From positions 2,356,001 to 2,420,000 of the forward strand of contig NZ_JARUND010000002.1 of NCBI RefSeq assembly GCF_036898825.1: 64,000 nt of DNA, read 5' to 3'. How positions within the stretch are numbered: position 1 is the stretch's first letter; each line of letters starts with the position of its first letter. A program made the position numbers and the translations under genes. This document shows positions 1,893-39,675 of the stretch, piece after piece. Source of the DNA: Streptomyces sp. B21-083. GTDB lineage: Bacteria > Actinomycetota > Actinomycetes > Streptomycetales > Streptomycetaceae. The notes under the pieces are model-generated. The model saw only the letters and a program-made list of their open reading frames with translations. It was not told where the DNA came from and searched no databases.

Positions 1893-3386
1893 TCAGCCCG
1901 CCGCGGACGCGGTATCGGAAGCGGATGACGTTTCGGCTCCGACCGACTCGGCCCGCTCGTCCCGGCACAGGAGCGCGTACAGCCCCGCCGCCAGCGCCGT
2001 GCCGATGAACCACGAGTACGGGGCCACATCATGGAAGTCCTTCACCAGGGCGAGCACCGCCGCGACACCGGCCGCGGGCAGAAAGGCCCACAGAGCCTTG
2101 GGATTGACGCCCTTGCGGTAGTAATAGCGCGATCCGGGCTCGCCGTTGAAGAGTTCGTCGACGTCGATGCGGCCCTTCTTGACCCAGAAGTAGTCGAGCA
2201 TGATCACGCCGAACAGCGGTCCCAGGAAGGCGCCGAGACCGCCGAGGAAGTACTGGACGACCGTGGGGTTGGAGAAGAGGTTCCACGGGGTCACCACCAG
2301 CGCGGCCACCGTGCTGATCATTCCGCCGATCCTGAAGCTGATCTTCTGCGGCCAGACGTTGGCCAGGTCGTACGCGGGTGAGACGAAGTTGGCGACGATG
2401 TTGACGCCCATGGTGGCGACGGCGAAGGTCAGGGCCGCCAGGACGAGCACCCAGGTGTTGCCGACCTTGGCGACCAGCTCCGCCGGGTCGGTGATGGCCT
2501 CGCCGAACACCTCGATGGAGCCGGCCGTGACGATGACCGAAACGATCACGAAGGCGGTCGAGTTGAAGGGCAGTCCCCAGAAGTTGCCGCGCTTGACGGT
2601 CTTGTAGTCGGGCGCGAAGCGGGAGAAGTCGCAGAAGTTGAGCATCAGCGTGCCGTACGTGGCGATGATCAGCCCGATCGCGCCGAACCACTGCCGCCAC
2701 TGCTCGCCGACGGAGACCGGGTGCGGGGTGGAGGTGAGCGAGATGGTCCAGCCCGCCTTGGAGAGGACCCAGACGGCGAGCGCGATCATGACCAGCCAGA
2801 TGGCCGGACCGCAGAAGTCCTGGAACTTCCGTACGGACTCCATGCCCTGGCTGATGATCAACGCCTGGATCAGCCACAGCGAGACGAAGGAGAGCCAGCC
2901 GAGCGCGTCGAGCCCGAGGAACGAGCTGTGCGTCCAGGATTCGAGGTTCGGCCAGGCCGCGAGGAGCATGACGTTGACGGCGACGGAGGCCAGGTAGGTC
3001 TGGATGCCGTACCACATGATGGCAATGACGGCCCTGATGAGCGCGGGGATGTTGGCGCCCCAGACGCCGAAACTGATCCGGCTGATGACGGGGAACGGGA
3101 CGCCGTGCCGCTGGCCGATCCTCCCCATCCAGTTCATGCCGACGTAGATGATCACGAAGCCTACGAGGAGGGAGGTGAAGATCTGCCAGACGTTCATGCC
3201 GAGGACCAACAGGCCGGCCGCGAACGTGTAGTTGCCGAGGTTGTGGACGTCCGACATCCACATCGCGAAGAGGTCGAAGACCTTCCAGTTGCGCTTGCCC
3301 GCAGGCGCGAGGTCCTCGTTGGTGAGCCGGGGATCGGGGACGAAGGCTGGGGTACCGGTGACTTCGGCACGGTCGGCTAGGGACAC
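1893..3386 (-). CDS. NCS1 family nucleobase/hydantoin/allantoin:cation symporter
   Basis: A 497-residue membrane protein with about 12 hydrophobic segments. The N-terminal soluble stretch with RLTNEDLAPAG and KRNWKVFDLFAMWMSDVH is typical of NCS1 carriers (Mhp1, PucI, cytosine permease), as is GMNWMGRIGQRHGVPFPV in the third segment region and FCDFSRFAPD near segment 8. The start is set at GTG 3386, which has GGAG six bases upstream; a longer in-frame reading to 3491 would cross the palindrome at 3454-3467 and is rejected. It lies in the plasma membrane and probably imports a hydantoin or purine breakdown product driven by Na+ or H+. The racemase gene follows directly. Confidence 0.88.
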   Translation of the reverse strand: MSLADRAEVTGTPAFVPDPRLTNEDLAPAGKRNWKVFDLFAMWMSDVHNLGNYTFAAGLLVLGMNVWQIFTSLLVGFVIIYVGMNWMGRIGQRHGVPFPVISRISFGVWGANIPALIRAVIAIMWYGIQTYLASVAVNVMLLAAWPNLESWTHSSFLGLDALGWLSFVSLWLIQALIISQGMESVRKFQDFCGPAIWLVMIALAVWVLSKAGWTISLTSTPHPVSVGEQWRQWFGAIGLIIATYGTLMLNFCDFSRFAPDYKTVKRGNFWGLPFNSTAFVIVSVIVTAGSIEVFGEAITDPAELVAKVGNTWVLVLAALTFAVATMGVNIVANFVSPAYDLANVWPQKISFRIGGMISTVAALVVTPWNLFSNPTVVQYFLGGLGAFLGPLFGVIMLDYFWVKKGRIDVDELFNGEPGSRYYYRKGVNPKALWAFLPAAGVAAVLALVKDFHDVAPYSWFIGTALAAGLYALLCRDERAESVGAETSSASDTASAAG

Positions 3387-36371: not shown

Positions 36372-37028
36372 TCAGCCCTTGGCGGCCTTCTTCTCCTCGG
36401 CGTCCGCGATGACCGCCTCGGCGACCTGCTGCATGGACATACGGCGGTCCATCGACGTCTTCTGGATCCACCGGAACGCGGCGGGCTCGGACAGGCCGTA
36501 CTCCGTCTGCAGGACCGACTTCGCACGGTCGACGAGCTTGCGGGTCTCCAGCCGCAGAGTGAGATCCGCGATCTCCTTCTCCAGGGTCCGCATCTCGTTG
36601 AACCGCGAAACCGCCATCTCGATCGCCGGCACGACGTCGCTCTTGCTGAACGGCTTCACGAGGTACGCCATGGCCCCGGCGTCCCGGGCCCGCTCGACGA
36701 GGTCGCGCTGCGAGAAGGCGGTCAGCATCAGCACCGGCGCGATGGACTCCGCGGCGATCTTCTCCGCCGCCGAGATGCCGTCGAGCTTCGGCATCTTCAC
36801 ATCGAGGATGACGAGATCGGGGCGGTGCTCACGGGCAAGCTCCACGGCCTGCTCACCGTCACCGGCCTCACCGACGACGGTGTAGCCCTCCTCTTCGAGC
36901 ATCTCCTTGAGATCGAGCCGAATGAGCGCCTCGTCCTCGGCAATGACGACACGGGTCGTCAGCGGAGGCACGTGCGACTTGTCGTCGTCGGGCGCGTCTA
37001 CGGGCTGGGGCGACTCGGGGGCGGTCAC
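36372..37028 (-). CDS. ANTAR-domain response regulator (PdtaR-like)
   Basis: 218 residues from GTG 37028, with GAGGAG upstream. Residues about 25-140 are a receiver domain: VVIAEDEALIRLDLKEML with the acidic pair, LVILDVKMPKLDG with the phospho-accepting Asp, LTAFS and YLVKPF with the conserved Lys. Residues about 155-215 are an ANTAR RNA-binding domain (ETRKLVDRAKSVLQTEYGLS, EPAAFRWIQKTSMDRRMSM). ANTAR proteins bind paired hexaloop hairpins in nascent RNA and prevent termination; M. tuberculosis PdtaR is the closest well-known relative. The partner histidine kinase is not in this window. Confidence 0.93.
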   Translation of the reverse strand: MTAPESPQPVDAPDDDKSHVPPLTTRVVIAEDEALIRLDLKEMLEEEGYTVVGEAGDGEQAVELAREHRPDLVILDVKMPKLDGISAAEKIAAESIAPVLMLTAFSQRDLVERARDAGAMAYLVKPFSKSDVVPAIEMAVSRFNEMRTLEKEIADLTLRLETRKLVDRAKSVLQTEYGLSEPAAFRWIQKTSMDRRMSMQQVAEAVIADAEEKKAAKG

Positions 37029-37122
37029 GGGGAGCTCCTCGTTCAGGGCAGAATGCTGCTGGCAAGAGCCTACCTAGATGATGCCGACTGTGGTCACCGG
37101 GTACACTCCCAACAGCACTCAG

Positions 37123-37206
37123 GCCGGGTTGGCGCAATTGGCTGACGCGGAGGTCTCAAACACCTCTGTCCGAAAGGACATGTGGGTTCGAATCCCATAC
37201 CCGGCA
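37123..37206 (+). tRNA. tRNA-Leu (CAA)
   Basis: 84 bases with a perfect 7-bp acceptor stem (GCCGGGT with ACCCGGC), discriminator A at 37206 and no encoded CCA. The anticodon stem GAGGT/ACCTC closes the loop CTCAAAC, giving anticodon CAA, which reads UUG. A long variable arm (CTGTCCGAAAGGACATG) and GTGGGTTCGAATCCCAT as T-arm confirm a class II leucine tRNA. It is intact, with no intron. A terminator follows at 37211. Confidence 0.96.
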
Positions 37207-37210
37207 CTCC

Positions 37211-37247
37211 AAGCGGATGTCCACGTCCTGGTGAACATCCGCTTTTT
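37211..37247 (+). terminator. tRNA-Leu terminator
   Basis: AAGCGGATGT (37211-37220) pairs with ACATCCGCTT (37235-37244), a 10-bp stem followed by a T run (CTTTTTG), a classical intrinsic terminator. It separates the tRNA from the next gene. Confidence 0.85.
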
Positions 37248-37285
37248 GCTGCGTGTCGTCGCGATCAGTGACACAGAGTGTTCGC

Positions 37286-38062
37286 ATGAACTTTCACGGC
37301 ACCGACGTGCGACAGAAGGCGGTCGCGCTCTTGCGTGGTGGCATGCGGAACGCGGATGTCGCCCGGCAACTCAACGTCCCCGTGGGCACTGTCGGCAAGT
37401 GGCTCCACGTGGACCGTTCAAAGCACGGCGAATGCCCTGGGAGACCAGTGCCGATGTGTCCCCGGTGCGACGATCGGCCCCTCGACGAGGTCGCGTACTC
37501 GTACCTGCTGGGCCTCTATTTGGGCGATGGCTACATCGCCAATTGGTCTGGTCACCGGAGTCCCAGTCTCGTAATCACCTGCGACGACTCCTGGCCCGGC
37601 CTCATGGACGAGTGCGAGCTGGCCATGCGCACGGTCTTTCCGAACAACGCCGTCTGCCGCGCCCCCAAGATCGGTTGCCACGACGTGAAGCTCTATTCCA
37701 ACCATCTTCGCTGCCTGTTCCCCCAGCACGGCACCGGCAAGAAGCACGAACGCCTCATAGCTCTCGAACCATGGCAACAGGCGATCGTCGATTCCAGCCC
37801 CTGGCAGTTCATCCGAGGGCTCATCCACTCAGACGGTTGCCGCATGATCAACTGGACCACGCGCCTCATCTCGGGCGAGAAGAAGCGCTACGAATACCCG
37901 CGCTACTTCTTCACGAACCTCTCGTCCGACATCAGAGAGCTCTACACCGACACCCTCGACAAGGTCGGCGTCGATTGGAAGCGAGCGAACGCCAAGAACA
38001 TCTCCGTAGCCCGCAAAGCCTCCGTAGCCCTCATGGACACCCACGTAGGCCCGAAGTACTGA
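37286..38062 (+). CDS. free-standing HTH-LAGLIDADG protein (homing endonuclease-like)
   Basis: 258 residues from ATG 37286; GTG codons at 37253 and 37268 are in frame and the ribosome-binding site is poor, so the start is uncertain. Residues 7-42 form a helix-turn-helix (KAVALLRGGMRNADVARQLN, VPVGTVGKWLH). CPRC at 58-61 may bind zinc. Two LAGLIDADG motifs follow, YLLGLYLGDGYI (73-84, D81) and FIRGLIHSDGCR (175-186, D183), each ending in the metal-binding Asp, with about 90 residues between them as in monomeric enzymes. It is neither in an intron nor an intein. Codon use is less GC-strict than in the neighbours. DNA cleavage is inferred; a regulator derived from such an enzyme is the alternative. 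Confidence 0.8.
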   Translation: MNFHGTDVRQKAVALLRGGMRNADVARQLNVPVGTVGKWLHVDRSKHGECPGRPVPMCPRCDDRPLDEVAYSYLLGLYLGDGYIANWSGHRSPSLVITCDDSWPGLMDECELAMRTVFPNNAVCRAPKIGCHDVKLYSNHLRCLFPQHGTGKKHERLIALEPWQQAIVDSSPWQFIRGLIHSDGCRMINWTTRLISGEKKRYEYPRYFFTNLSSDIRELYTDTLDKVGVDWKRANAKNISVARKASVALMDTHVGPKY

Positions 38063-38105: not shown

Positions 38106-39542
38106 CTACTTGGGGCTGTCGTCCTCGCCGATGTGGTGGACGCGGACCAGGTTGGTGGAGCCGGAGACGCCGGGCGGGGAGCCGGCGGTGATCACGACCA
38201 CGTCGCCCTGCCGGCAGCGCCCGTACTGCAGGAGCAGTTCGTCCACCTGGTCGACCATCGCGTCCGTGGAGTCGACATGAGGGCCGAGGAAGGTTTCCAC
38301 GCCCCACGTCAGCGTCAGCTGGGACCGGGTCGCCGGGTCCGGGGTGAAGGCCAGGAGGGGGATCGGGGAGCGGTAGCGGGACAGGCGTTTCACCGTGTCG
38401 CCGGACTGGGTGAACGCCACCAGGAACTTCGCGCCGAGGAAGTCGCCCATCTCGGCCGCCGCCCGGGCCACGGCGCCGCCCTGCGTGCGGGGCTTGTTGC
38501 GATCCGTCAGGGGAGGCAGGCCCTTGGCCAGCATGTCCTCCTCGGCCGCTTCCACGATCTTCGCCATCGTGCGGACCGTCTCGATGGCGTACTTGCCCAC
38601 GCTCGTCTCGCCGGACAGCATCACCGCGTCCGTGCCGTCGATGACCGCGTTCGCGACATCGGACGCCTCCGCCCTGGTCGGGCGCGAGTTCTCGATCATC
38701 GAGTCGAGCATCTGCGTGGCGACGATGACCGGCTTGGCGTTGCGCTTCGCCAGCTTGATCGCACGCTTCTGGACGATCGGGACCTGTTCCAGGGGCATTT
38801 CGACGCCGAGGTCACCGCGGGCGACCATGATGCCGTCGAAGGCGGCGACGATGTCGTCGATCGCGTCGACGGCCTGGGGCTTCTCGACCTTGGCGATGAC
38901 CGGGAGGCGGCGGTGTTCCTCGTCCATGATGCGGTGGACGTCGTCGATGTCGCGTCCGCTGCGGACGAAGGAGAGGGCGATGACGTCGAAGCCCGTGCGC
39001 AGCGCCCAGCGCAGGTCCGCTTCGTCCTTGTCGGAAAGGGCGGGGACGGACACCGCCACGCCGGGGAGGTTGAGGCCCTTGTGGTCGGAGATCACTCCGC
39101 CTTCGACGACCTTGGTGTGGACGCGGGGTTCGTCGACGGCGGTGACTTCGAGGCAGACCTTTCCGTCGTCGACGAGGATGCGTTCGCCGGGGGTGACGTC
39201 GGCGGCGAGGCCCGCGTAGGTGGTGCCGCAGGTCTGGCGGTCGCCTTCGACGCCCTCCTCGACGGTGATGGTGAAGGTGTCGTCGCGTTCGAGGAGTACG
39301 GGGCCTTCGGCGAAGCGGCCGAGTCGGATCTTCGGGCCTTGAAGGTCGGCGAGGAGGCCGATGCTGCGGCCGGTTTCGTCGGCGGCCTTTCGAACGTGCT
39401 GGTATCGCGCCTCGTGTTCGGCGTAGGTGCCGTGGCTGAGGTTGAAGCGGGCTACGTCCATTCCGGCGTCGACCAGTGCCTTGATCCGGTCGTAGGAGTC
39501 GGTGGCGGGGCCCAAAGTACAGACGATCTTTGCTCGGCGCAT
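38106..39542 (-). CDS. pyk: pyruvate kinase
   Basis: 478 residues from ATG 39542. Signature regions are MRRAKIVCTLGPATDS, MDVARFNLSHG with the substrate-binding Arg-Asn-Ser-His, LLADLQGPKIRLG, VIAKVEKPQAVDAID with the catalytic Lys and Glu, DGIMVARGDLGVEMP (metal and phosphate binding), VATQMLDSMIENSRPTRAE and VMLSGETSVGKY. The C-terminal regulatory domain follows to GEDDSPK. It makes ATP and pyruvate from phosphoenolpyruvate and ADP in glycolysis. The VEKP (Lys) context points to a K+-dependent or independent form that cannot be decided by eye. Confidence 0.97.
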   Translation of the reverse strand: MRRAKIVCTLGPATDSYDRIKALVDAGMDVARFNLSHGTYAEHEARYQHVRKAADETGRSIGLLADLQGPKIRLGRFAEGPVLLERDDTFTITVEEGVEGDRQTCGTTYAGLAADVTPGERILVDDGKVCLEVTAVDEPRVHTKVVEGGVISDHKGLNLPGVAVSVPALSDKDEADLRWALRTGFDVIALSFVRSGRDIDDVHRIMDEEHRRLPVIAKVEKPQAVDAIDDIVAAFDGIMVARGDLGVEMPLEQVPIVQKRAIKLAKRNAKPVIVATQMLDSMIENSRPTRAEASDVANAVIDGTDAVMLSGETSVGKYAIETVRTMAKIVEAAEEDMLAKGLPPLTDRNKPRTQGGAVARAAAEMGDFLGAKFLVAFTQSGDTVKRLSRYRSPIPLLAFTPDPATRSQLTLTWGVETFLGPHVDSTDAMVDQVDELLLQYGRCRQGDVVVITAGSPPGVSGSTNLVRVHHIGEDDSPK

Positions 39543-39675
39543 ACTTCGAGCGTAGGCCTTACCGGTGGGTAGCGAATTGGCGCCGCATGACGACTCAACA
39601 ACCGTTGTATGAAGGGTCGTTGACATCCGTTTAAGTGTGCGAGGCATCGCTCCGATGAGCATTTGAGTGACCTGA

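Follow-up and report, generated by a model that had tools for sequence, protein, structure and literature searches.

Co-inheritance of tRNA-Leu with a free-standing helix-turn-helix LAGLIDADG nuclease gene in Streptomyces: a candidate homing cassette

Introduction

How does a gene of the homing endonuclease type come to stand directly behind an intact transfer RNA (tRNA) gene that it does not interrupt? The question is raised by a locus of Streptomyces sp. B21-083 (GCF_036898825.1, contig NZ_JARUND010000002.1, positions 2,356,001-2,420,000 of the forward strand; this whole 64,000-nt stretch is the window, to which all coordinates refer). Here a tRNA-Leu(CAA) gene is followed by a nuclease gene encoding an N-terminal helix-turn-helix (HTH) and two LAGLIDADG motifs. 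A sequence-only reading had described this gene as lying behind an intron-less tRNA and inside neither intron nor intein, and the description stands: it is an intact open reading frame (ORF) of its own, starting 78 bp 3' of the tRNA end. Comparison with related loci shows that the tRNA and the N-terminal half of the nuclease are inherited together, independently of the species tree, within a block that has sharp outer edges. The best explanation, with a probability of about 0.58, is a selfish single-locus homing cassette composed of the tRNA-Leu gene and the free-standing nuclease, which attacks rival cassettes and carries its own tRNA as a rescue. The features of the locus are as follows.

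36372..37028, minus strand: ANTAR response-regulator gene, the left host flank (Response_reg 8.2e-30, ANTAR 1.3e-20); tracks the species, not the cassette
37078..37996, plus strand: exchanged cassette, by pairwise alignment with the relative G091 (locus L147)
37123..37207, plus strand: tRNA-Leu(CAA), form with a long variable arm, intron-less (ARAGORN, Infernal)
37211..37244, plus strand: hairpin followed by a T-run 3' of the tRNA, terminator-like (-20.1 kcal/mol, z -3.15; 0 of 200 shuffles equally stable)
37286..38062, plus strand: HTH-LAGLIDADG nuclease gene, 258 aa, intact ORF
37301..37423, plus strand: N-terminal HTH (modelled helices 6-17, 22-29 and 33-46), the part coupled most strongly to tRNA form
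37499..37531, plus strand: LAGLIDADG motif 1 (D81)
37808..37837, plus strand: LAGLIDADG motif 2 (D183)
37997..38062, plus strand: final 21 nuclease codons and stop, which track the host flank and not the cassette (identity and correlation)
38106..39662, minus strand: pyruvate kinase gene, the right host flank (PK 1.4e-118)

Two forms of the tRNA and their inheritance

The comparison covers 199 Streptomyces genomes, from 197 of which the locus was fetched (G032 and G079, which lack a response-regulator match, were left out). The tRNA is present in 196 of the 197 loci, always with a 7-bp acceptor stem and A73 (196/196), and takes two forms, with a short (74-77 nt, 125 loci) or a long (83-88 nt, 71 loci) variable arm. 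No part of the locus varies more, the nuclease excepted; 126 distinct strings were counted, a number inflated by varying ARAGORN gene ends. For comparison, bldA, encoding tRNA-Leu(UAA), has a match in 199/199 genomes with 93-100% identity among the matches listed, six genomes giving weak best matches only (E about 4e-4 to 7e-4). tRNA-Leu(UAA) might also read UUG. Inspection by eye of nine fully listed genomes, eight short-form and one long-form and not including that of the window, found no second CAA tRNA; in the window genome the tRNA-Leu(CAA) has the lowest score among 67 tRNAs found by Rfam. Among loci with an intact nuclease, a CCTT...AAGG mini-hairpin stands directly 3' of the tRNA in 57/67 short-form and 0/53 long-form loci.

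The distribution of the two forms follows the nuclease and not the species. On trees built with FastTree, without support tests, and compared with 30 shuffles, the short/long trait requires 55 changes on the flanking-gene tree (two genes, 195 loci; shuffles mean 57.7, minimum 53), as against 8 changes on the nuclease tree (124 proteins; shuffles mean 40, minimum 29). About 27 of the 62 locus pairs with a flank distance below 5% differ in tRNA form, where the baseline for all pairs is 46%, and the nearest neighbour has the same form in 51/120 cases when chosen by flank and in 103/120 when chosen by the nuclease N-terminal half (N-half), chance being about 1/2. The proposal that the tRNA offers the nuclease a safe and conserved landing site is therefore not borne out, as the tRNA is variable and moves with the nuclease; self-protection by interruption of the target would then not be needed, and a different tRNA sequence could protect instead.

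The distances at rph, a gene 1.5 Mb away in the window genome, match flank distances (rho 0.77) but not nuclease N-half distances (rho -0.07; 29/30 genomes), so that the flanks track the species, unlike the cassette; flank genes recombining around a vertically inherited cassette are rejected by this result. Species with near-identical flanks and rph may carry different tRNAs and nucleases: the window and G091, whose tRNA is of the short form, differ by 5.1% in the flanks, 4.6% in rph and 64% in the nuclease N-half. Such example pairs, including those of the rph comparison, were picked for being different, and the unselected rate is that of the close-flank pairs above. Along the protein, the correlation of nuclease distance with tRNA distance is 0.25-0.62 over residues 1-160, peaking in the HTH (0.58-0.62), and about 0 over residues 161-258. 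Two-way clusters of the HTH region, set against tRNA form, give 58/1 versus 11/52; because the sequences are related, the Fisher p of this table is descriptive only. The tRNA form and the nuclease N-half, comprising the HTH and the first repeat, thus vary together.

Edges of the exchanged block

In 92 loci compared along their length, the response regulator and pyruvate kinase track the flank, while the tRNA correlates with the nuclease core (r 0.56) and not with the flank (r 0.01), and the switch on the left comes some 60-75 columns into the alignment of the left intergenic region. In the window, the last block in common with G091 stops at 37077, placing the left end of the cassette at about 37078 and the right end at about nuclease codon 237, and the same exchange pattern is present in 31 close-flank pairs. 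Over codons 1-236, these 31 pairs with close flanks and different cassettes are no more alike than distant pairs (3893, of which 600 were sampled); over the last 20 codons their identity is 0.90-0.93, versus 0.77-0.81 in distant pairs. Correlations at the 3' end of the nuclease gene (r 0.25-0.34 with the flank, about 0 with the nuclease) agree with this, and since the final ~20 codons track the flank, the 3' end of the gene belongs to the chromosome. The exchanged block accordingly has two sharp outer edges, one upstream of the tRNA and one some 20 codons ahead of the stop codon of the nuclease.

The nuclease and its distribution in Streptomyces

A homologue of the nuclease was found in 150/199 genomes (E <= 1e-3). 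At the 197 loci, tblastn gave a match in 149 (125 covering almost the whole query, 22 partial and 2 being tandem pairs) and none in 48; a stricter criterion of ORF integrity gave 122 intact, 27 decayed and 48 loci without the gene. In 149/149 resolved loci the nuclease gene follows tRNA-Leu(CAA) in the same orientation, the spacer in intact copies being 30-118 bp (median 99), and pyruvate kinase lies close 3' of it in 119 of the 132 loci where pyruvate kinase was seen. At least seven gene-less loci, judged by eye, retain, immediately ahead of the stop codon of pyruvate kinase, a remnant of the nuclease 3' end. The occurrence of intact, decayed and absent copies is the pattern of gain, decay and loss expected for a homing gene. 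Two nuclease genes in tandem follow a single tRNA-Leu(CAA) at L109, L133, L258, L260, L371 and L372. The sole locus without a tRNA, L078 (G168), has a 317-aa gene of another kind between the flanks. No integrase of an element using the tRNA as an attachment site was noticed among the ORFs viewed in large-gap loci, where no systematic search was made.

Among 124 intact ORFs, the catalytic aspartates are retained almost without exception (D183 in 124/124, D81 in 122/124), so that both LAGLIDADG motifs carry the acidic residue characteristic of the homing endonuclease superfamily. The ratio of non-synonymous to synonymous substitution rates (dN/dS) is 0.19, indicating purifying selection, and the predicted fold is I-DmoI-like, a double alpha-beta-beta-alpha-beta-beta-alpha repeat. 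Chance or an annotation artefact is rejected by the dN/dS, the 124 intact ORFs and the fold. Against a curated LAGLIDADG profile the window protein scores 14.8 bits (cut-off 22.5) and its relative L266 33.5 bits, and a PDB sequence search returned no relative at useful significance. The sequence-only reading is supported as to homologues beside the same tRNA, conserved aspartates and the existence of empty sites.

It had also raised the possibility that the nuclease has turned into a regulator. WhiA is such a regulator, with a C-terminal HTH and lost catalytic residues; the window protein is not a WhiA/DUF199 protein, as it keeps its aspartates and has its HTH at the N-terminus (residues 6-46). 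A domesticated regulator like WhiA, or an RNA maturase like those of the LAGLIDADG type, acting on the transcription or processing of tRNA-Leu, is hardly credible in view of the near-invariant aspartates, the intron-less tRNA, the free swapping of alleles, and the 75/197 loci in which the nuclease is absent or decayed and the tRNA mostly retained.

Relatives beyond the genus and in viral contigs

The association with tRNA-Leu extends well beyond Streptomyces. A family-level sample contained a match in 109/150 genomes and 15/17 genera, and a class-level sample in 90/394 genomes and 26/137 genera, 34 of the 90 being Streptomyces. Among the 56 class-level matches outside the genus, 50 were viewed in two sets (17 CAA and 3 UAG of 20; 27 CAA and 2 UAG of 30), with 44 adjoining tRNA-Leu(CAA), 5 adjoining tRNA-Leu(UAG) and 1 lying where its contig stops; for genera of the Streptomyces family other than Streptomyces, tRNA-Leu(CAA) stands beside the nuclease in 8/8. 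The nuclease start faces the tRNA in a divergent arrangement at L266-268, L271, L272, L399, L401, L405 and L407. One branch in one actinobacterial family (f4; L266-L268, L405, L407) is divergent beside tRNA-Leu(UAG) rather than CAA.

Viral contigs yielded 14 loci. The 12 clear relatives, several of them near-duplicates, all lie in tRNA arrays with a tRNA-Leu (UAA, CAA or UAG) within 1 kb, tRNA-Met being the immediate neighbour in L414-416; the two weakest matches (24%) are without a tRNA. In L417, a short tRNA-Leu(CAA) that is strongly Streptomyces-like lies 8 nt behind the gene, and the other Leu tRNAs there are long. Short-arm tRNAs with a leucine anticodon, the form of the 125/196 Streptomyces loci, occur in viral L412, L417, L419 and L420. 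In L420 (3001-3732), a call of a short tRNA-Leu(CAA) (3127-3200) falls within the nuclease frame itself, in the stretch that links the HTH to the LAGLIDADG core. The nuclease is therefore found beside tRNA-Leu from Streptomyces through other actinobacteria, and its viral relatives are found in tRNA arrays.

These observations bear on two alternatives. In the first, the nuclease cuts the rival cassette or its surroundings at some other site, such as the nuclease gene, the promoter region or the 3' end that the alleles share, and co-conversion alone takes the tRNA along. The tRNA does lie physically within the converted tract, and free-standing nucleases of phages can, according to PMC2988022, cleave at a distance from the genes encoding them. 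Co-conversion alone, however, would not preserve the link to tRNA-Leu, which persists through changes of anticodon, locus, orientation and host, and this alternative appears unlikely. In the second, the nuclease is a defence against non-self, cleaving incoming phage or plasmid DNA that bears a different tRNA-Leu allele, its own allele being the mark of self. Long upkeep under purifying selection, old and balanced tRNA forms, and relatives of both target and nuclease in viral tRNA arrays would suit this role, but decay and absence are frequent, and a search of 50,697 phage and 72,556 plasmid records for close relatives was negative within the limits applied, leaving it very improbable.

Proposed mechanism and points against it

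In the proposed homing cassette, DNA of a foreign strain would meet the locus, and the nuclease would cut the rival cassette, most likely in the tRNA-Leu gene or nearby. Repair from the donor would replace the tRNA and the nuclease N-half, with a crossover at the point from which the two sequences resemble each other. The tRNA brought in would have a different sequence at the cut site, making it immune, and would also be a functional replacement, and the host would thereby survive an attack on its tRNA gene. Fixed copies would decay and become open to reinvasion, the whole acting in the manner of a synthetic home-and-rescue drive. Some alleles have the gene and others lack it, and there is an exchange tract of the kind expected from co-conversion, as in intronless homing; from this pattern we infer the process, including the nuclease as the cause of the co-inheritance and the place of the cut.

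A broader reading, which we hold tentatively and at somewhat less than even odds, is that a natural home-and-rescue drive has shaped a core translation gene. One nuclease family would have attacked tRNA-Leu genes across actinobacteria and phages, causing repeated replacement by structurally different tRNAs, including a leucine tRNA without the long arm, and HTH class and tRNA form would have stayed matched across an unmatched spacer because mismatched recombinants were cut.

Several observations weigh against the homing cassette. Sequences of the 75 bp 5' of the nuclease start do not group by tRNA form (0.656 for short-short, 0.720 for long-long and 0.667 for short-long pairs; 0.585 shuffled), and the window, of the long form, shares much spacer sequence with short-form L147, suggesting that the cassette is not always a single unbroken block. 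Either this spacer, short and gappy, is merely noisy, or the tRNA and the HTH stay matched across it, as we are cautiously inclined to think, which would point to selection against mismatches. The main change point within the nuclease falls at about residue 140, a position confounded by the stronger conservation of the C-terminal half. The other HTH class is present in 11/69 short-form loci, and L154 and L186 differ in tRNA form with fairly similar N-halves (0.31). No pair indicating recent transfer, with near-identical nucleases and distant flanks, was found (0 pairs). Finally, tRNA-Leu(UAG), which has no LAGLIDADG neighbour, likewise varies within the genus, so that CAA is not unique in its variability; the control for this tRNA scored four candidates per genome, and its count of 47/199 overstates absence. 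Four of the 12 fetched UAG loci (L360, L362, L368, L369) have an HNH nuclease gene (PF01844/PF13392) between bcp and the tRNA, which may be a separate instance involving a different nuclease family.

The variability of the UAG tRNA also favours an explanation in which the two tRNA forms are kept by ordinary homologous recombination and by diversifying selection acting on the tRNA (through escape from phages or tRNA-cleaving toxins, for instance), with the nuclease as a linked passenger. Both tRNA forms are old, occurring across the Actinomycetes (33 short and 19 long CAA tRNAs in the loci compared), and the copies of the nuclease are likewise old, having diverged and not spread recently. A passenger would, however, hardly be coupled to the tRNA by its N-half and not at all by its C-half, within sharp edges and untouched flanks, nor would its family be expected to keep its catalytic aspartates and to keep to tRNA-Leu across other anticodons, loci and viral contigs. 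This explanation is rather unlikely, and the homing cassette is retained.

Comparison with known systems

The kind of nuclease and intronless homing are already known. As far as the open-access literature shows, the new elements are an HTH-LAGLIDADG family tied to tRNA-Leu, the exchange of a resident tRNA of the chromosome along with a nuclease, and a switch between two tRNA forms at one locus; no description of this cassette was found in open-access papers, most subscription journals being outside this scope, and novelty is to that extent unproven. The class of a core tRNA changes within one genus independently of descent, which bears on tRNA identity (the charging of a CAA tRNA without the long arm) and on the use of tRNA genes as stable markers, and the matching of two HTH classes to two tRNA forms gives direct predictions of who cuts whom.

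Among natural systems, a close likeness is to SegB, a free-standing GIY-YIG endonuclease of the T4/T6 phage tRNA region, which is reported to cut within tRNA genes and so to bias inheritance towards the tRNA region that it belongs to (PMC13096335, PMC2988022), free-standing phage endonucleases leading to local marker exclusion (PMC2988022). By our own reading, the complement of the SegB motif RAWTSGAAC (PMC13096335) appears to resemble the tRNA T-arm. The present nuclease likewise stands by a tRNA gene and is presumed to favour its own tRNA; but SegB acts in a phage genome with many isotypes, whereas the present nuclease joins a LAGLIDADG fold to an HTH at a single chromosomal tRNA-Leu locus, with a structurally different replacement tRNA. 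Membership of the Seg family is rejected, the fold being LAGLIDADG and not GIY-YIG. I-DmoI and I-Tsp061I share the monomeric double-repeat fold, but are archaeal, intron-encoded and without an N-terminal HTH, with 14-19% identity to the nuclease. Mycobacterial tRNA clusters with HNH genes likewise link nuclease genes to horizontally moved actinobacterial tRNA genes, but, according to PMC6582537, these are extra tRNAs of likely phage origin, with no allele replacement of a resident tRNA.

The synthetic drive HomeR offers a functional parallel, in that a nuclease attacks a gene and brings a resistant working copy. It is engineered, uses Cas9 and acts in insects, according to PMC7968924, whereas the present system is natural and bacterial, its target and rescue being presumed. 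The divergent tRNA-Leu is co-inherited with the nuclease, and the attack on the tRNA gene is the presumed step. If the proposal is correct, the cassette would be a natural counterpart, on a bacterial chromosome, of synthetic home-and-rescue drives, offering well over a hundred natural allele pairs, and would account for a nuclease that attacks a useful gene yet leaves its host alive.
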